In this document: positions 2,162 to 44,522 of the stretch, piece after piece
Layout: every line of letters starts with the position of its first letter
How positions within the stretch are numbered: position 1 is the stretch's first letter
NCBI GenBank assembly: GCA_020832345.1
Contig: JAFIEY010000246.1
Coordinates: 1-54,098, forward strand
DNA: 54,098 nt
Source: Cryomorphaceae bacterium
GTDB lineage: Bacteria; Bacteroidota; Bacteroidia; Flavobacteriales; Schleiferiaceae
Direction: 5' to 3'
Notes under the pieces: generated by a model
Seen by the model: only the letters and a program-made list of their open reading frames with translations
What the model was told of the DNA's origin: nothing
Databases searched by the model: none
Program-made: the position numbers and the translations under genes

Positions 2162-2952
2162 TTCCCAAGCCCTATATAGCAAAATGGAAAGATCAGGCTC
2201 CATGGACTACCAATGAGCAGATAGAGCAAGATCTGATAATATCCAGAGCATTGGCAGTACTTTTCTCTGATGAATTCCTAAGCGAAAACATGGCATTCCG
2301 TGGAGGTACCGCACTACACAAACTTTACCTGAACCCAGCTCCCAGATACTCAGAAGACATTGACCTGGTTCAGATCAAAGAAGGTCCAATCAAGCCTATC
2401 CTAAAGAGAATAGATGAGGTCATTACCTTTTTTGAGGAAGATAGAGTGGTTAAACCCAAAGCCAATAATAACACTTTGCTTTATCGATTCAATTCGGAAT
2501 ATTCACCGGATACACGGCTCAGACTGAAAATAGAAATCAATTGCCGCGAACATTTCAATTTACTAGGATGGAATTCGTTCCCTTTCTCTGTAAAAAGTGA
2601 GTGGTTTTCTGGTCAATGTGGTATTACCACCTATCACTTAGATGAACTCCTGGAGACCAAGCTTAGAGCACTCTACCAACGCAAAAAGGGGCGAGACTTA
2701 TTTGATCTTCATTATGCTGACCAACACGGAGTGCTGGATTATGACAAGATTATTCATTGCTACTATGAGTACATGAAATTCGTAGTAGGCAAGCCACCTA
2801 CCCGAAAGGAATTCATGCTAAACATGGAGCAAAAAAAGAAATCCGCCCTTTTTTCAGGCGATATGGAAGGACTTCTGAACCCGAACCTGGAGTACAATCA
2901 GGAAAGCGCTTTTGAGTGGTTGGAGGAGACACTAATAAACAAAATGGTTTAG
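2158..2952 (+). CDS. abiEii: AbiEii-type nucleotidyltransferase toxin
   Basis: 264 residues, the usual size for the AbiEii/DUF1814 nucleotidyltransferase family. The catalytic signature is visible: RGGTALHKLYL at ~48-58, then SEDIDLV at ~67-73 with the two metal-binding acidic residues. The conserved ETKLRALYQRKKGRDLFDL follows at ~166-184, with the conserved Lys and the RDxFDL motif. AbiEii enzymes transfer nucleotides, and characterised relatives such as MenT act on tRNA. They cause abortive infection or growth arrest unless the cognate antitoxin is present. Its start overlaps the abiEi stop by 4 bp, and three bases separate it from the next gene. The active site looks intact, so the module is probably functional. 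Confidence 0.87.
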   Translation: MIPKPYIAKWKDQAPWTTNEQIEQDLIISRALAVLFSDEFLSENMAFRGGTALHKLYLNPAPRYSEDIDLVQIKEGPIKPILKRIDEVITFFEEDRVVKPKANNNTLLYRFNSEYSPDTRLRLKIEINCREHFNLLGWNSFPFSVKSEWFSGQCGITTYHLDELLETKLRALYQRKKGRDLFDLHYADQHGVLDYDKIIHCYYEYMKFVVGKPPTRKEFMLNMEQKKKSALFSGDMEGLLNPNLEYNQESAFEWLEETLINKMV

Positions 2953-2955
2953 AAT

Positions 2956-3342
2956 ATGACTTACGATCAGCAAGTGAAATTCGAGGAGCTATTAAGTTTT
3001 ATATCAACGCATACCATTGATAGAAGAAGGCCTCATATCGACAAGAAAGCCTTTGAAGAAAATATCAAATGGAATGCTTCTTTGTTCTTTGCAAAGGTTA
3101 TACAATTGGCAAAGCCAAGTAAACGGGAGCTTACCCTAGAAGAATTTTACGAGTTTAAAAGGAAATACGAAATACAAAAAGGAACTAAAATTAATGCGGA
3201 TAAATTATTTCAAAAGCACTGGCTGAGAAATATCTTAGACACCATAAAAATCGCAGGAACAGTATCGTCAGCATGTCATAGCTTTAAGGAATTTGCCCAT
3301 TACTACCAAGAATTAACCTTGAGTCCACTCCAACAAGGATGA
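2956..3342 (+). CDS. Third gene of the AbiE operon, unknown function
   Basis: 128 residues, starting 4 bp after the abiEii stop and on the same strand, so almost certainly co-transcribed. It is predicted soluble and rich in aromatic and charged residues, with no recognised motif and no signal peptide. The last seven codons (SPLQQG plus stop) are read from inside MITE-1 copy 2, which begins at 3321. The original C-terminus has therefore been replaced or extended by the mobile element. It could be an accessory to the AbiE pair or an unrelated cargo gene. Confidence 0.6.
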   Translation: MTYDQQVKFEELLSFISTHTIDRRRPHIDKKAFEENIKWNASLFFAKVIQLAKPSKRELTLEEFYEFKRKYEIQKGTKINADKLFQKHWLRNILDTIKIAGTVSSACHSFKEFAHYYQELTLSPLQQG

Positions 3343-3456
3343 TTTCAATCAAAATCGAGGGGATTCTTGAATCGGAGCTAACTAAATGTTATTGAAAATT
3401 AAAAAATCTACCGATAAGGAAGATTTTGGCAGAAAGGGACTTTTTGGAGCAGACTC
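3321..3456 (+). repeat. MITE-1 copy 2
   Basis: 136 bp from GAGTCCACTC to GCAGACTC, same orientation as copy 1. The left flank is AACCTT and the right flank ATTTAT, so no target duplication is seen. The right flank equals that of copy 1, which suggests exchange between copies rather than a clean insertion. It supplies the stop codon of the upstream gene, and its hairpin may also act as a terminator. Confidence 0.85.
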
Positions 3457-3557: not shown

Positions 3558-3639
3558 CTATCGTGAGCCCGATCGGGAGGGCGCATCAATGAAAAAAAGG
3601 TTACATCCCTCCGGGCTGTACTTTTTTTATGGCGTATTC
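3558..3639. other. Short spacer between DR2 and ssrA terminator
   Basis: About 80 bp with no gene. It holds a possible hairpin in which AGCCCG and GGAGGG pair with CCCTCC and CGGGCT downstream. Its right end, ATGGCGTATTC at ~3617-3640, is the inverse of GAATACGCCAT at ~3665-3675, so the DR3 copy is part of a larger palindrome flanked by T and A tracts. This may be the remnant of a third insertion. Confidence 0.4.
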
Positions 3640-3675
3640 CTCACTCAAGCTAACGCTTGGCTCAGAATACGCCAT

Positions 3676-3709
3676 AAAAAAAGCGCACACTAACGTGTGC
3701 GCCTTTTTT
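3676..3709 (-). terminator. Rho-independent terminator of ssrA
   Basis: The minus strand reads a perfect 8-bp stem, GCGCACAC with loop GTTA and GTGTGCGC, followed by a run of T (the A run at 3676-3682). It lies directly downstream of the ssrA 3' end. The A/T tracts on both sides would let it work in either direction. Confidence 0.85.
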
Positions 3710-3715
3710 TCTTTG

Positions 3716-4110
3716 TGGAGTTGGCGGGGTTCGAACCCGCGTCCAAACAAACGTGAAAAGTGTTTTCTACATGCTTATCTCACCATTAATTTTCGTCAAT
3801 TGGCCGGCGATGAGCAGCCTAACAATTGCTTATTTGCTAAATTTCGAAAGTATGTCGCAACGCCATACAATCTATACCTACTTTTCTGGCACCTCGTGAT
3901 CGGACTCCACAGGTAAGGGATTCCGCGAGATGGCTCGCTCCCACACCTCGTGTGAGATTAGCTCTAATCTGCTATCGCATGATTAGGCGGCAAGCGCGTA
4001 GTTATCTTCGCCAGTTAAAAAATGTGAAACGAATGTTTTGCGAGAATTCCTTTCGATACTCGACATGCTTACACGATCCATCGACTTGCTGTCAATACCA
4101 AGTCAACCCC
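3716..4110 (-). ncRNA. ssrA: tmRNA (transfer-messenger RNA)
   Basis: 395 nt on the minus strand. The 5' end GGGGTTGAC pairs with CAACTCC at the 3' end to form the acceptor stem. The T-arm reads GGGTTCGAACCC. The tag frame at 4012-3983 is GGC GAA GAT AAC TAC GCG CTT GCC GCC TAA, giving (A)GEDNYALAA, a typical Bacteroidota degradation tag. The CCA end is not encoded after the discriminator A. tmRNA with SmpB rescues stalled ribosomes and tags the unfinished protein for proteolysis. A perfect Bacteroidota promoter lies just upstream and a strong terminator downstream. The 3' end is a classic integration site, and two partial copies lie to the left. Confidence 0.96.
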
Positions 4111-4123
4111 AAAGAACTTGCTG

Positions 4124-4153
4124 CAAAGATACGATATTTTCGCCTTTTAGCAA
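4124..4153 (-). promoter_or_regulatory. Promoter of ssrA (Bacteroidota -33/-7 type)
   Basis: On the minus strand TTG (4153-4151) and TATCTTTG (4131-4124) are separated by 19 bases. This matches the Bacteroidota housekeeping sigma consensus TTG...TAnnTTTG. The mature tmRNA starts 13 bases after the -7 box. Confidence 0.85.
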
Positions 4154-4216
4154 TTACCTTTGCCTAAATATCTTTGAGGCTTTACAAAGCTTTAGCCCAC
4201 CTTAAAATATTTTAGA

Positions 4217-5425
4217 ATGACCATTGGAATTATTAGAGAAGGAAAAACGCCCCCCGATAAACGCGTGCCGTTTACACCCGAACAACTCGTGGAATTTAAA
4301 GATAAATTTGATGTCGATATAATCGTCGAACCCAGTCCAATCCGGGCTTATCCCGATGATGAATATCGAAAACTCGGCATCGAGGTTTCTGCGGATTTGA
4401 GCAACTGTGATGTCTTAATGGGTGTGAAGGAAGTGCCAATGGATCAGCTCATCCCAGATAAAACCTATTTCTTCTTTTCACATACCATCAAAGAGCAACC
4501 GTATAATCGGGAACTGCTTCGTAAAATTTTGCAGAAAAATATTCGCTTGATTGATTACGAGGTGTTGACTAAACCCAGTGGTGTACGCCTGGTGGGATTT
4601 GGCCGATACGCCGGAATTGTAGGTGCATACAACGGTATATTGGCCTGGGGAAAATACAGTAAGACCTATGATTTGAAACCCGCAAATCAATGTTACGATC
4701 GGACAGAACTCAATGAACAGTTGAAATCCGTTCGCTTACCGCCATCTTTTAAAATTGTACTCACAGGTACGGGTAGAGTTTCTAAAGGCGCACAGGAAGT
4801 CCTCGATGATCTAGGGATTGAAAAGGTTAGCCCCTTGGAATTTTTAGATAGAGATTATAACGCTCCGGTTTATACAGTGCTTGAGGTTAATCACTACTTT
4901 TTTCGGGCAGACAACAAGCCATTTGATAAAGCTGCTTTTTACCAAAATCCCGTCGGTCATCTGGCCCGGTTTAAACCTTTTGCCAATTCATCCGACATGT
5001 ATATTCCTTGTCATTTTTGGGACAGTCGCTCTCCTTTTATCTTCACCAACGACGATGCCAGGCATGCTAAAAACCGAATTAAAATTGTCGCCGATGTGAG
5101 CTGTGATATCGATGGGCCTATTTGCTCCACCAAGCGACCCAGCACCATCGACAAACCGCTTTACGGCTATGACCCGATTACCCATAGTGAAGTGCCTTTT
5201 GGACAACCAGGGTCCATTGGAGTGATGGCGGTGGACAATCTGCCCTGTGAATTACCACGTGATGCATCGAGAGATTTTGGGGCGGAACTTATGGAGAACG
5301 TAATGCCCGCACTTTTGGGAGATGATCCCACAGAAATTATTTCAAGGGCTTCAATAACCGATGGAGCCGGAAAACTCGGACCACATTTTACACACTTAAA
5401 AAATTATGTCGAACATGAAGATTAA
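4217..5425 (+). CDS. Saccharopine dehydrogenase-like NAD(P)-dependent oxidoreductase
   Basis: 402 residues. The N-terminus (MTIGIIREGKTPPDKRVPFTPEQ) is the start of the alanine dehydrogenase/transhydrogenase N-terminal family, shared with lysine-forming saccharopine dehydrogenase (LYS1). The nucleotide-binding segment IVLTGTGRVSKGAQEVL at ~185-201 fits a Rossmann turn. The conserved ADVSCDIDGPICST at ~290-304 and YGYDPITHSEVPFGQ are typical of the Bacteroidota LYS1-like group. The probable reaction is NAD-linked oxidative cleavage or formation of saccharopine, but the substrate cannot be proven from sequence. The next gene overlaps its 3' end by 20 bp, so the two may be translationally coupled although their functions look unrelated. 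Confidence 0.75.
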   Translation: MTIGIIREGKTPPDKRVPFTPEQLVEFKDKFDVDIIVEPSPIRAYPDDEYRKLGIEVSADLSNCDVLMGVKEVPMDQLIPDKTYFFFSHTIKEQPYNRELLRKILQKNIRLIDYEVLTKPSGVRLVGFGRYAGIVGAYNGILAWGKYSKTYDLKPANQCYDRTELNEQLKSVRLPPSFKIVLTGTGRVSKGAQEVLDDLGIEKVSPLEFLDRDYNAPVYTVLEVNHYFFRADNKPFDKAAFYQNPVGHLARFKPFANSSDMYIPCHFWDSRSPFIFTNDDARHAKNRIKIVADVSCDIDGPICSTKRPSTIDKPLYGYDPITHSEVPFGQPGSIGVMAVDNLPCELPRDASRDFGAELMENVMPALLGDDPTEIISRASITDGAGKLGPHFTHLKNYVEHED

Positions 5426-7400
5426 ATTACTTTTTTGCCTGATTTTTTCTGGCTTTTTCTTTTTTGAAGCTATAGCTGGTGATACTATTGTAGTGAAAGC
5501 CCAGCAGGACAGGGATTTGGTTTGGTATCAACGTTACAGGGACTGGGCTGATTTTCCCGCAAATAAAGAGTTTCACCATGTCAATATGCAATTTACCATG
5601 GGATGTGCATCTGGTGGTTGCTCGGATTGGGATTATACGGTATTGGTTTTTCTTTTAAAACCAACCGGCAAAATGGACTCTACCATTGCTTCCATTGATA
5701 CCGTTTCTATATCCCCACTGGTGATTGATACGGTTTGGAATGTTACCCCAAACAAAGAGCGGTTTGAACTCGGACGAATGATAACACCCTATGGAGGCTA
5801 CATGGCGCGAAATCAGCATGGATATAACAACGGCTGGAAACATCGCTTTGATTTTGATGTGACTGATTTTCAAATATTGATGGAGGATTCTGTAGAAATT
5901 GAGGTCTTTTATCAGGGTTGGTCTGCGGGCTTCAGTGCCACCATTGATTTTCAAATGGTAGAGGGAACACCACCACGAAGGGTGCGCCGTATAGAAAACA
6001 TTTACACACCGGGTGGATATAATTACTTTACACCTCAGCAATTTGAAACGGATGTTTTGCCACCCAAAAAACTGTATTTTGAACCCGGGGATCACAGTGC
6101 TGTTCTGCGGTTTATTCCTTCCGGTCACGGTTTTATAAATGCCGTAAATTGTGCGGAGTTTTGCCAAAGAAACTACGAAGTTCACATCAATGGCACCAAG
6201 ACTTTTGAGCAACTTATGTGGCGCGACGATTGCGGATTAAACCCCATTCATCCGCAAGGTGGTACATGGCTGTACGATCGTGCCAATTGGTGTCCCGGTA
6301 GCGAGGTGATAACTTATACCCACGAGTTGAGTAACTATTTTTCACCCGGTGATTCCATGGATTTTGATATTGATATCGAACCCATCATTTACACCGTACC
6401 CCCTGGAGAAACCCCGGCAAATTATAATTTATCGGCCCAGTTAATTACTTATGAAGCTCCCCTCCGTCAACGCGATGCTGCCATTACACGGATTATAACG
6501 CCGAGTGATCACGAACAAAATAGCCGAATGAATCCGAGTTGTGGAAAAGCCATTGTGGAGATCATCAACAAGGGAAGTGAGCCGCTTACTTCCGTGAGCA
6601 TCCACTACGGAATTAATTCTGCACCGCAATTAAAATACAAATGGACAGGCAACCTGGCGATGATGGAAAAGGAAATTGTAGAGCTGCCTTTTGATCAGGC
6701 GGAAAATTGGTATAGCTTTTATGGCATCAATCAGTTTCAAGCCTGGACTGTGGCGCCAAATGGAGCGTATGATCAATACCCCGAAAATGATGCGCAAGTC
6801 ACCTTCTTTGAGGCGCCAAGGGTTTTACCTGCTGACATTCGCGTTTTTTTTCGCACAAACAATCGGGGAGATGAAACCTTCTGGCACCTTAAAGACGCCT
6901 CGGGTGTAGTAATTGATAGTGGGGATAACCTCGCCAATAATACGCTTTACGATATACCAATCTCACTGGCTACGGGATGTTATGAATTTGTACTTGGTGA
7001 TAGAGGTAAAAATGGTTTGAGTTTTTGGGCCAATAATGACGGTGGCGGATTTGCCCGATTAATGTCGCCCAATAGCACGCTTCAAATCTTTAATCCTGAT
7101 TTTGGCACCGAAATCCGGTATTACTTTACCGTAGGTTTTGGTCTTTCTTCGGATGCGTATCAGGTATCTCAACGCTTTGCGGTTTTCCCAAACCCAACGG
7201 ATGGTCGGGTCAATATCGCAACGGAAGGGCAGGAGGTGAAAGTCACGGTTAAAGATCAAATGGGGCGCTCGGTGAAAAAGGTCACTTTTAAATCCGACGA
7301 AATACCCCGTATGGATTTGTCGAATTTGGCCTCGGGCGTTTATTTGGTGCGTATTGAAGACGAACGCGGTCACGAAGTTTACAAAATTGTGCTACGATAA
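5406..7400 (+). CDS. PNGase F-like secreted glycosidase with T9SS sorting domain
   Basis: 664 residues. It has a signal peptide (hydrophobic LLFCLIFSGFFFFEAIAGD). The body resembles peptide-N-glycosidase F: an N-terminal segment HHVNMQFTMGCASGGCSDWDY and a second region around VEIEVFYQGWSAGFSATIDFQ with NIYTPGGYNYFTP. PNGase F cleaves asparagine-linked glycans from glycoproteins. The final ~80 residues (FAVFPNPTDGRVNIATEGQ ... GVYLVRIED ... YKIVLR) are a T9SS type A sorting domain. It is therefore an exported, probably surface-attached or secreted enzyme for using host or environmental glycoproteins. The start could be M1 (5406) or M4 (5415); both overlap the upstream gene. The 3' end overlaps the convergent gene by 9 bp. 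Confidence 0.78.
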   Translation: MSNMKIKLLFCLIFSGFFFFEAIAGDTIVVKAQQDRDLVWYQRYRDWADFPANKEFHHVNMQFTMGCASGGCSDWDYTVLVFLLKPTGKMDSTIASIDTVSISPLVIDTVWNVTPNKERFELGRMITPYGGYMARNQHGYNNGWKHRFDFDVTDFQILMEDSVEIEVFYQGWSAGFSATIDFQMVEGTPPRRVRRIENIYTPGGYNYFTPQQFETDVLPPKKLYFEPGDHSAVLRFIPSGHGFINAVNCAEFCQRNYEVHINGTKTFEQLMWRDDCGLNPIHPQGGTWLYDRANWCPGSEVITYTHELSNYFSPGDSMDFDIDIEPIIYTVPPGETPANYNLSAQLITYEAPLRQRDAAITRIITPSDHEQNSRMNPSCGKAIVEIINKGSEPLTSVSIHYGINSAPQLKYKWTGNLAMMEKEIVELPFDQAENWYSFYGINQFQAWTVAPNGAYDQYPENDAQVTFFEAPRVLPADIRVFFRTNNRGDETFWHLKDASGVVIDSGDNLANNTLYDIPISLATGCYEFVLGDRGKNGLSFWANNDGGGFARLMSPNSTLQIFNPDFGTEIRYYFTVGFGLSSDAYQVSQRFAVFPNPTDGRVNIATEGQEVKVTVKDQMGRSVKKVTFKSDEIPRMDLSNLASGVYLVRIEDERGHEVYKIVLR

Positions 7401-20677: not shown

Positions 20678-20802
20678 GAGTCTGCTCTAGAAAGTTCCTT
20701 TCTGCCAAAATCTTCCTTGTCGGCAGACTTTTGAATCCTCACTTGCTCCGGTTCAAAAATCCCCTCGATTTTGATTGAAATCATACTTTTAAGAGTGGAC
20801 TC
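20678..20802 (-). repeat. MITE-1 copy 5
   Basis: 125 bp, reverse orientation, with both ends intact and flanked by an exact 6-bp duplication AATCAA (20672-20677 and 20803-20808). It lies between the divergent tmk and radC genes. The rest of this 326-bp gap holds the tmk -7 box and AT-rich sequence upstream of radC. Confidence 0.9.
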
Positions 20803-20900
20803 AATCAATGATTCCTTTAATGTTTTTGGTTCAGATATAAATTACATTTTTGATTTGCATTTATGTAAGATTGTTCTTAGTTTTGTCGAAAAATTTGAAA

Positions 20901-25368: not shown

Positions 25369-25384
25369 TACAAACAGAAAAATT

Positions 25385-25509
25385 GAGTCCACTCTAAAAA
25401 GGATGATTTCAATCAAAATCTAGGGAGTTTTTGAACCGCAGCAAGTGAGGATTCAAAAGTCTATCGACAAGGAAGATTTTGGCAGAAAGGGACTTTTTAG
25501 AGCAGACTC
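25385..25509 (+). repeat. MITE-1 copy 6
   Basis: 125 bp with both ends intact, flanked by an exact 6-bp duplication AAAATT (25379-25384 and 25510-25515). It fills the gap between two convergent genes, and the right-hand TSD overlaps the TAA stop of the minus-strand gene (25516-25514). Confidence 0.9.
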
Positions 25510-27520: not shown

Positions 27521-27603
27521 GGCCCAGGACAGTACTTGAACCTGCACGACCGTAGGTCACCACCCCCTCAAGATGGCGTGTCTACCAATTTCACCACCTG
27601 GGC
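27521..27603 (-). tRNA. tRNA-Leu(GAG), with unusual T-arm and 3' end
   Basis: 83 nt. Acceptor GCCCAGG pairs with CCTGGGC. The D-arm is normal, the anticodon loop TTGAGGG gives GAG, and a long variable arm (GACC/GGTC) confirms a class II leucine tRNA. Two points are odd. The T-stem pair 53-61 is G-A instead of the near-universal G-C (GCAGG TTCAAGT ACTGT). The base after the acceptor is C followed by CA, so position 73 is C rather than A, or the discriminator is lost before CCA. A terminator separates it from tRNA-Lys. It may be impaired or a degenerating copy. Confidence 0.8.
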
Positions 27604-27641: not shown

Positions 27642-27714
27642 TGACTCGACTGGGGCTCGAACCCAGGACCCTAACATTAAAAGTGTTATGCTCTACCAGC
27701 TGAGCTATCGAGTC
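27642..27714 (-). tRNA. tRNA-Lys(TTT)
   Basis: 73 nt. The acceptor GACTCGA pairs with TCGAGTC, the discriminator is A, and the T-arm is GGGTTCGAGCCCC. The anticodon loop CTTTTAA gives TTT. CCA is not encoded. All arms are regular. A perfect promoter lies upstream. Confidence 0.95.
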
Positions 27715-34846: not shown

Positions 34847-34977
34847 TAGTCTGCTCCAAAAAGTCCCTTTCTGCCAAAATCTTCCTTGCTGATAGACTTT
34901 TGAATCCTCACTTGCTCCGGTTGAAAAATTCCCTTCGCGTCGATTTTGACTGAAGTCATCCTTTTTGGGGTGGACTC
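34847..34977 (-). repeat. MITE-1 copy 8
   Basis: 131 bp, reverse orientation, with the first base changed (TAGTC for GAGTC). Exact 6-bp duplication ATGTTT (34841-34846 and 34978-34983). It sits 14 bp upstream of the SDR ATG, so it provides most of that gene's upstream region. Confidence 0.88.
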
Positions 34978-35043: not shown

Positions 35044-35168
35044 GAGTCTGCTTCAAAAAGTCCCTTTCTGCCAAAATCTTCCTTGTCGATAGACTTTTGA
35101 ATCCTCACTTGCTCCGGTTCAAAAATCCCCTCGGTTTTGATTGAAGTCATCTTTTTTAGAGTGGACTC
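35044..35168 (-). repeat. MITE-1 copy 9
   Basis: 125 bp, reverse orientation, with a clean exact 6-bp duplication ACCGAT (35038-35043 and 35169-35174). It lies 66 bp from copy 8 in the same orientation. Its right duplication overlaps the first base of the TAA stop of the M48 protease gene (35176-35174). Confidence 0.9.
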
Positions 35169-35173
35169 ACCGA

Positions 35174-42279: not shown

Positions 42280-42301
42280 TCATTTGGATTTTTCTAAAAT
42301 T

Positions 42302-42428
42302 GAGTCCACTCCAAAAAGGATGATTTTAATAACAATCGACGCGGGGGAGCTAACTAGCTGTTAGTAAGGATTCGGTGATTTACCGACAAGGAAGATTTTG
42401 GCAGAGAGGGACTTTTTGGAGCAGATTC
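42302..42428 (+). repeat. MITE-1 copy 10
   Basis: 127 bp with an exact 6-bp duplication AAAATT (42296-42301 and 42429-42434). It fills the gap between two convergent genes, and the right duplication overlaps the first base of the TAA stop of the Lgt-like gene. Confidence 0.9.
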
Positions 42429-42433
42429 AAAAT

Positions 42434-44278
42434 TTAAAATCCCTGCCTTACCTTCAAAGCAAATTGAAATAGTTGGTAATCATTATTATCATTGGATGAA
42501 GATATAGTGCCAAAGGATGGAGCGATGGTAAGCCGGTGATTTATAAACTCAATTTCCGGCCTTATACCCGTGTAGATTTGGGATGGTTTTCCAGCAGCGA
42601 GATCAAACCCGAACCTCAGAAAAATGGACTCAGTTATGGGGTAATTGATGCTAAAGCCTGTGTTAAAAGCAGAGAGAGAAACCCCGATTGGCACATATTG
42701 ATCAAAAAGACCGAATCTAAATTGTGCAATTCCATAAGGATTACCAGCCCTAAAACTAAACATAGGCAAATTATGGAAAAAGTTGTAAGTAGCCAAGTTG
42801 TCAAATTTGTATATCTCGCCAGATCTAATTCCAATCATTAACGCAATATCCGGATTAAAATAATATCCGAAGTACGGGGCTATATTATAAAAACGATGGT
42901 TATAAGATCTGGCAGGGTTTTGGAATTCTTCCATCACACCATCTATACCTATAAAAAAATGTCCCTTCTTTTTTGGGATTTTATCAAAATGATATTCAAC
43001 ACCAAAAGAATAAGTGTTAAATCGGGGGCCGAGCCCGTTAATGGAATCTCCAAGCACACAGGTAGGACCACCACAACCTGTATTGTCAATGACTGCACAG
43101 GGATAAAAAGGTTCACCGAAATGATTATGCGTAAAATTTCCGGTGAAAAAAGTTCGACCGTTGATGTTTTCTCGGAACATTTTCTCTTCGTCTTCTTTTC
43201 TGGAGTTTTGCGCTACCACCGAAAGGGAAATAAGCCCCATAATGGCAGCGGTAAATTTCGGTTTTAGCTGGTGTTGTGTTTGCCAAATGAATTTAAAATT
43301 AAGGGCAACAGCCAATGTGATTTGTAAATACGCAACGGTTCTTTCATAAGGTGTAAACCAATTGTGTAACATCATCATGGCAATTGATAAAATCAGTAAT
43401 GCCATGAGATTTCGAAATGGATAAACCTCTGGCAAAATTTCTTTAGACTTTGTTCTTTCGGACTTCCAGAGAAAGTAAATCATTATTATTATGACCAGAA
43501 GAATGGACCATTGAAGGGTTTTTAAACCAAAAACAATTTGGTGCGCGTTGTGGTGTGAATTTATATCCCGGAAGAATTCAATAAAAAACCGACCGGTGGA
43601 CATGCATAGCAGTGAAATGACCACTAAAGTTTGATCGTTGCGAAGGTGTTTTTTTACGATGAGTAATATACCAATTGTAATGACTGCAACAATTAGAAAG
43701 TATAGCGGCACATTGTGAACCGGCAGGGTCTCCATATTTTTTATGGATAGATGTCCACCATAAATCTGTTGGTCACGAAGAATGCCTGGGCCAAAATATT
43801 TCACACCCATTGGTTTGGCTGTAGGTGTGCCATAGCAACATCCGGCCATCATGCATCCAACACGCTGAACGAGCATAACTGCCGGCAGAAAAAAGGCGAA
43901 AGCGCCCCAAACCGGGGGTTTAAACTTGAGGGCTTTGACGATAAGGATTAAACCAAAAACACTCAGAATTAAAGCACCAATTCCGGTTTTGCCACCGGTA
44001 GAAATTAAATCTCCCGTCGTGAAAAAGTGCTTCCAATCCTCCGGACGAAAGGCACCTAATTTACTGCCAAGGATAAGAAAGAAAGTAGTGTAGGCGCTGA
44101 TAATGAGCCACGAAGATAATGGGAAATTTTTTTTGTAACCCTGAAAAATAAATATGCACAACCCGATCGTAAAAGCAATTTGGTACAAAGTGGGATACCA
44201 TTTAGCGGCGGAGGTCAGATCGACCAATAAGTGGCCTTCTTTTATGTCAATAGATTGAAATAAAGTAAAGATTTCCAT
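42434..44278 (-). CDS. Lgt-like membrane domain fused to a beta-barrel-like C-terminus
   Basis: 614 residues. Residues ~1-275 have about seven hydrophobic segments and the prolipoprotein diacylglyceryl transferase pattern, with RVGCMMAGCCYGTPTAKPMG near ~145 and FFRDINSHHNAHQIVFGL near ~232. This GCxxxGCC version differs from classical Lgt (RxGNFxNGE), so the activity may differ. Two or three further helices follow at ~290-350, then TAAIMGLISLSVVAQNS, which looks like a signal peptide. The last ~250 residues are strand-rich and barrel-like (YSFGVEYHFDKIPKKKGHFFIG ... FQFALKVRQGF). Its stop abuts MITE-1 copy 10. Confidence 0.7.
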   Translation of the reverse strand: MEIFTLFQSIDIKEGHLLVDLTSAAKWYPTLYQIAFTIGLCIFIFQGYKKNFPLSSWLIISAYTTFFLILGSKLGAFRPEDWKHFFTTGDLISTGGKTGIGALILSVFGLILIVKALKFKPPVWGAFAFFLPAVMLVQRVGCMMAGCCYGTPTAKPMGVKYFGPGILRDQQIYGGHLSIKNMETLPVHNVPLYFLIVAVITIGILLIVKKHLRNDQTLVVISLLCMSTGRFFIEFFRDINSHHNAHQIVFGLKTLQWSILLVIIIMIYFLWKSERTKSKEILPEVYPFRNLMALLILSIAMMMLHNWFTPYERTVAYLQITLAVALNFKFIWQTQHQLKPKFTAAIMGLISLSVVAQNSRKEDEEKMFRENINGRTFFTGNFTHNHFGEPFYPCAVIDNTGCGGPTCVLGDSINGLGPRFNTYSFGVEYHFDKIPKKKGHFFIGIDGVMEEFQNPARSYNHRFYNIAPYFGYYFNPDIALMIGIRSGEIYKFDNLATYNFFHNLPMFSFRAGNPYGIAQFRFGLFDQYVPIGVSLSAFNTGFSINYPITESIFLRFGFDLAAGKPSQIYTGIRPEIEFINHRLTIAPSFGTISSSNDNNDYQLFQFALKVRQGF

Positions 44279-44380: not shown

Positions 44381-44522
44381 GAGTCCACTCTAAAAAGGAT
44401 GATTTCAATCAAAATCGACGCGGAGGGGATTTTTGAACCGGAGCTAACCATTTGTTAGTGAGGATTCAAAAATCTGCCGACAAGGAAGATTTTGGCAGAA
44501 AGGGACTTTTTTGAGCAGACTC
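44381..44522 (+). repeat. MITE-1 copy 11
   Basis: 142 bp, the longest complete copy apart from those with duplicated ends. Flanks are TATAT (44376-44380) and TATAT (44523-44527), five bases rather than six. It lies in the 432-bp gap between the Lgt-like and DEAD helicase genes; the rest of that gap is AT-rich and holds the DEAD helicase -7 box. Confidence 0.85.

Follow-up and report, generated by a model that had tools for sequence, protein, structure and literature searches.

A conserved gene fusion in Bacteroidota joins an Lgt-like membrane domain, an internal signal-peptide-like segment and a predicted outer-membrane beta-barrel

The fusion gene and its occurrence

The analysed window (54,098 nucleotides of contig JAFIEY010000246.1 from a Cryomorphaceae bacterium) carries one long frame on its minus strand at 42434..44278 (-), which starts with the ATG at 44278, ends with the stop codon at 42434-42436 and holds 614 codons with no internal stop. 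In the 614-aa protein an Lgt-fold domain comes first, followed by two additional helices, a segment resembling a signal peptide and a beta-barrel of 12 strands. A preliminary description made from the letters of this DNA had noted the fusion of Lgt-like, signal and barrel parts, and our analysis confirmed this observation. The same whole layout recurs uninterrupted in 46 other fusion genes, and the architecture is therefore more than chance. The full-length AlphaFold model had a mean pLDDT of 61, with residues 144-188, around the active site, below 50.

In total 47 intact and distinct fusion genes were collected from four Bacteroidota families (f1, f3, f23 and f58), besides one copy split by a stop codon (G816) and one cut by a contig end (G002). 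Whole-genome searches found the fusion in the genus and family of the window itself (f1: G003, G004 and two tandem copies in G009), in f3 (G322 and G770) and in f58 (G610). Among 110 genomes of f23 there were 34 places with an uninterrupted full-length fusion. The fusion was rare, at about 1%, in random samples of the phylum. The named records among the nearest relatives were metagenome-assembled genomes of Flavobacteriales, Cryomorphaceae and Schleiferiaceae. No match for the fusion was obtained in a plasmid search, and searches of open-access papers turned up no description of it. Conservation was scored on the first 27 aligned fusions and then on 20 held-out fusions fetched afterwards, and these counts take in near relatives. 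The trees were quick ones with SH-aLRT support only, in which long branches are placed with little certainty.

The preliminary description had left room for a frameshift joining two genes at this place. The fusion proved to be conserved in relatives, and no relative was found in which two separate genes are explained by a frameshift here; the uninterrupted genes of the four families contradict a frameshift or assembly artefact. One relative does have the two halves apart: in G816 (L126 1737-3686, +) a single in-frame TAA lies between the Lgt-like core and the helices, signal and barrel, with an ATG about 12 codons further on. The split copy may represent a genuine arrangement of two genes, or it may be erroneous. 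In the trees it is placed inside the fusion clade, beside G899, which indicates that the split form is derived. Given the 47 intact fusions and this nested position, it is extremely improbable that a frameshift, a stop-loss or an assembly error joined two genes in the window.

The Lgt-like half and its altered active site

Residues 13-278 (43445..44242, -) form the Lgt-like domain. Its Pfam LGT match (PF01790) covers residues 24-271 with 68.5 bits against a gathering cut-off of 24.9, and this part of the AlphaFold model aligned to E. coli Lgt (5azb) with a Z score of 13.3 and an rmsd of 4.8 over 242 residues at 15% identity, with modest model confidence. The seven-helix Lgt-like domain proposed earlier was recovered in this way. 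The window protein shares with Lgt the seven-helix fold, the position of the signature loop and the stretch Arg239/Glu243/Arg246, kept here as R230, E234 and R237. Unlike Lgt, it has His103, Asn146 and Glu151 replaced, three signature cysteines, two extra helices and a fused barrel.

The altered motif GCMMAGCCYG, which had been pointed out before, corresponds to residues 141-150 (G141-C142-MMA-G146-C147-C148-Y-G150; 43829..43858, -). All fusions have C-x3-G-C-C-x-G where Lgt has the signature GRxGNFxNxExxG, and the three cysteines stand where E. coli Lgt has N146, E151 and L152. C142, G146, C147, C148 and G150 were invariant in 27/27 fusions, with Cys at the equivalents of both Asn146 and Glu151 in every one of them, and the C...GCC.G form was found in 20/20 held-out fusions. 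The equivalent of His103, in the HGG motif, is Leu, Ile, Pro or Phe across all fusions. The equivalents of Arg143 and Arg239 are both Arg in the window protein; across the fusions the former is R, K, C or G and the latter is lost in one clade, while R237, the equivalent of Arg246, is kept.

E. coli Lgt needs His103, Glu151, Arg143, Arg239, Glu243 and Arg246, and changes of H103 as well as E151A/Q inactivate it (PMC4728403). With the equivalents of His103, Asn146 and Glu151 gone, the window protein has the Lgt fold but is not Lgt by the defining residues. The Pfam match and the fold could be taken to indicate a second, ordinary lipoprotein diacylglyceryl transferase to which the barrel is incidental. 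We consider this highly improbable, since both the H103 and the E151 equivalents are absent, the NCBIfam lgt equivalog cut-offs were missed by far (52.7 vs 334 and 33.4 vs 118.9), as they were by the relatives, and the same genome encodes a canonical Lgt of 379 aa (G000 C170) with HG and GN..NSEIYG motifs and the signature RMGNMANSEIYG. Annotation of these genes as lipoprotein diacylglyceryl transferase on the basis of Pfam LGT is probably wrong.

The absent or variable key residues would also fit a non-catalytic Lgt-like half dedicated to chaperoning or tethering the barrel at the membrane while it is exported. Against this, the three cysteines, Gly150, Arg237, Gln256 and Glu312 do not vary among fusions that are very divergent, which is the pattern of an active site and not of a scaffold, and we regard such a chaperone or tether as quite unlikely.

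In other families, Lgt relatives that are shorter and unfused carry the signatures AGDGDYG/DGCYG and fall into a separate clade; separate barrel partners were not found near them in the short loci examined. Another type of frame, seen in L099 (4735-6627, +) and in similar form in L100-L105, encodes multidomain membrane proteins that combine an N-terminal phospholipid-methyltransferase match with a C-terminal LGT domain having C-x3-GCC-x-G. Long Lgt frames in G444, G497, G536, G680, G490, G513 and G621 were considered as fusions and rejected for having this other architecture (N-terminal phospholipid methyltransferase, C-terminal LGT). Since Lgt-like proteins that lack a barrel have C...GCC.G as well, the motif did not evolve for this barrel substrate alone.

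The internal signal-peptide-like segment and the barrel

The Lgt-like core is followed by two extra transmembrane helices at residues 287-335 (43274..43420, -), modelled at 287-303 and 310-335, with loop charges that fit the positive-inside rule. E312, in the predicted periplasmic turn, was invariant in 27/27 fusions. The internal signal-peptide-like segment (residues 336-356; 43211..43273, -) has a hydrophobic core after a K/R-rich linker, and the model gives a hydrophobic helix at 340-358 with ...SLSVVAQNS. Both the additional helices and the signal-like stretch with VVAQNS of the preliminary description were thereby borne out. Per protein, 2.2 K/R were counted in the cytoplasmic linker before the segment vs 0.4 in the preceding periplasmic loop, and this charge difference suggests that the segment runs from the cytoplasm to the periplasm. 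It aligns where homologous stand-alone barrels carry their N-terminal signal peptide.

Conservation of Gln together with the Q-rule places a predicted signal peptidase I site at A356|Q357 (43208..43213, -). Gln357 was present in 27/27 fusions and was the sole invariant column among 42 aligned positions around the internal segment. In the held-out fusions an alignment-free scan found a hydrophobic core, a small or polar residue at -1 and Gln in 20/20. The -1 residue in the first 27 fusions was Ala or Ser in 20, Asn in six and Phe in one, Asn and Phe being uncommon at this place for signal peptidase I. In Bacteroidetes, most substrates of this peptidase expose an N-terminal Gln that is then cyclised (PMC5837995), and in P. 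gingivalis Gln was found in 77% of these substrates and in 88% of the outer-membrane-protein-related ones (PMC10653852). The fusions resemble the Q-rule substrates (PMC5837995) in having a hydrophobic segment, a mostly small residue and then Gln, and differ from them in the position of the signal, which follows nine helices within a polytopic membrane protein and is not N-terminal. The fusion also offers a clean example from nature on which internal Q-rule cleavage of a polytopic protein can be studied.

The preliminary description had proposed a polyprotein cleaved at the internal signal. The conserved fusion, the invariant Gln, the topology, the short linker and the stand-alone barrels strongly support this part of the proposal on the level of sequence, from which we infer the cleavage itself, and the protein is very probably a cleaved polyprotein. 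The continuous frame would equally allow one uncleaved molecule spanning the envelope, but the distance from the cut site to strand 1, and hence from the last inner-membrane helix, is only 8-18 residues, at most about 6 nm when fully stretched, so that an uncut chain could hardly put the barrel in the outer membrane. Together with the invariant Gln at the cut site this makes the uncleaved form very unlikely. Separate internal initiation is also unlikely as a general route, since a Met occurs in the linker before the segment in only 3/27 fusions. The cytochrome b/c1 precursor FbcH of Bradyrhizobium is a polyprotein cut at an internal signal peptide. As in FbcH, one chain holds an inner-membrane and an exported part with a signal peptidase cut, here a predicted one; unlike in FbcH, the exported product is an outer-membrane barrel and its partner is an Lgt-like enzyme.

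The barrel occupies residues 375-614 (42437..43156, -). Residues 371-614 were modelled as 12 antiparallel strands in a closed barrel, the strands spanning 375-613 in the full-length model, with a pLDDT of 73 and a pTM of 0.69 when folded alone, and in this way the strand-rich part with an aromatic end that had been read from the sequence did model as a barrel. The final residue is Phe614 in the window protein, and the last residue varies among relatives. In VIA-align comparisons the barrel model matched BrkA (3qq2) with Z scores of 16.2-16.3, NalP with 15.4, EspP with 15.1 and a designed 12-strand barrel with 11.5. LpxR was matched with a Z score of 11.9-12.4, for which we claim no lipid A deacylase role. 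As the best matches are 12-strand barrels of unrelated functions, the fold says nothing on the function of the barrel. The barrel is like the BrkA, NalP and EspP translocators and LpxR in its 12 antiparallel strands, its C-terminal aromatic residue (in the window protein) and its predicted outer-membrane location; it differs from them in having no passenger, no recognised catalytic residues and a conserved cysteine in loop 1. The barrel sequence had no Pfam, NCBIfam or PHROGs family match. A sequence search of solved structures gave no match.

Homologous stand-alone barrels (L127-L132, L146, L160 and L161) have ordinary N-terminal signal peptides ending before Gln. Stand-alone barrel genes directly adjoin a fusion gene in L125, L130, L131 and L146. 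In L146 of G864 a fusion, a stand-alone barrel and a second fusion are clustered on one strand (565-2472, 2484-3452 and 3571-5490, -); in this stand-alone barrel loop 1 is present and its cysteine is absent.

The loop-1 cysteine, a proposed mechanism and the genomic surroundings

Loop 1 of the barrel (residues 387-418; 43025..43120, -), predicted to be extracellular, bears the cysteine Cys402 (codon 43073..43075, -), which is present in all fusions. In the 27 fusions 37/38 barrel cysteines lie in loop 1, a stretch of roughly one tenth of the barrel's length (Fisher p 2.5e-36; the underlying counts lack phylogenetic independence). Cys402 was aligned in 27/27 fusions, a cysteine stood at the same column in 20/20 held-out fusions, and most fused barrels have a single Cys. 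The stand-alone barrels form four separate lineages in the barrel tree, a quick tree with few separations. The cysteine is lost in three of these lineages, one of which is also without most of the loop and two of which keep the loop; the fourth lineage, located 10 bases behind the fusion in L125, has two loop-1 cysteines. That the cysteine is lost with the link to the enzyme, and was never lost in the fusions among the sequences compared, is our main reason to think that Cys402 is the partner of the enzyme. From these sequence patterns we regard the chances as evenly balanced that the barrel cysteine is the substrate or partner of the enzyme. The preliminary description as a whole was supported in part. 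Against its suggestion that the polyprotein links lipid modification to an outer-membrane product stands the absence of residues essential in E. coli Lgt; the invariant Cys, which most barrels unlinked from the enzyme have lost, gives plausibility to a link between enzyme and substrate.

The mechanism that we tentatively favour, at close to even weight, is a polyprotein cleaved by signal peptidase, in which the Lgt-like half acts on the cysteine of its own barrel before release. We infer the following order of events. Sec would insert the chain with its seven Lgt-like helices and the two further helices, and the tenth hydrophobic segment would act as an internal signal peptide that directs the barrel at the C terminus into the periplasm. 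Before the barrel is cut free, the Lgt-like half may use its three-cysteine site to modify or engage Cys402 in loop 1; the most likely chemistry would be transfer of a phospholipid-derived group to the Cys402 thiol, the same type of reaction as Lgt carries out on the cysteines of lipoproteins. A cut by signal peptidase I at A356|Q357 would follow, and the barrel would pass to the outer membrane with Gln as its first residue, which should turn into pyroglutamate, while the Lgt-like enzyme would remain in the inner membrane.

The fusion could also be a polyprotein that is cleaved in the same manner to give equal dosage of its two products, with the Lgt-like half acting elsewhere, on a phospholipid or another exported thiol, and Cys402 serving the barrel, for example in an intermolecular disulfide or in metal binding. 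The three-Cys motif in Lgt-like proteins without a barrel is consistent with this, as is the single Cys of most fused barrels, which would permit a dimer disulfide. Such action elsewhere gives no explanation for the loss of the Cys in three lineages of freed barrels and never in fusions, and we find it somewhat unlikely.

As to the chemistry of the favoured cis modification, the reaction of Lgt is a thiol alkylation, and a metal-activated thiol alkylation at a putative (Cys)3 metal site would therefore be chemically sensible. MetH and BHMT use (Cys)3Zn sites to activate a thiol that is then alkylated (PMC539065). By analogy only, the fusions are like these enzymes in having three cysteines, two of them adjacent, and a possible thiolate-activating metal site, and are unlike them in that MetH and BHMT are soluble TIM barrels with no homology to the Lgt-like half. 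A CDP-alcohol phosphatidyltransferase gene (PF01066) directly downstream of both f3 fusions (L048 38-634, -; L095 5052-5648, -) hints at phospholipid chemistry. In its most specific form, an Lgt-fold membrane enzyme with a (Cys)3-metal site would lipidate an internal loop Cys of the barrel, not a lipobox, and signal peptidase I would then separate enzyme and product; we consider this form unlikely.

The fusions add to Bacteroidota a wide set of genes in which a three-cysteine Lgt relative and a conserved-Cys barrel are parted at a predicted signal peptidase site. To our knowledge, the one reaction known for enzymes of the Lgt fold takes place on the cysteine of a lipobox. If the barrel Cys is modified, the Lgt fold would gain a second class of substrates, and an integral outer-membrane protein would receive a lipid or other modification. 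If the lipidation reading is true, this would be a new kind of protein-modification system, with a beta-barrel that carries lipid and an enzyme synthesised in one chain with its substrate.

The gene neighbourhoods in f1 shared no operon around the fusion. In f23 a topoisomerase gene and a gene like those of short-chain dehydrogenases flank the fusion; neither pointed to a function. The tandem fusion duplicate of G009 (L042 7622-9466 and 9723-11603, +) lies beside two tandem sigma-factor-like genes. Dispersed intergenic copies of a repeat of roughly 139 nt were found in the window, on the plus strand at 1-139, 3318-3456, 25371-25509, 42290-42428 and 44384-44522, and on the minus strand at 20678-20803, 34847-34972 and 35044-35169. 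The repeat had at least 46 matches in the same genome (570 candidates at first look, 40 scored); many copies lie exactly at contig ends, so that the repeat breaks the assembly. The fusion gene stands between two direct copies; a mobile origin was considered, and since the repeat is found all over the genome this bracketing means little. Rfam matches in the window were a tmRNA at 3713-4110 (-) and tRNA genes at 27521-27603 (-) and 27642-27714 (-).
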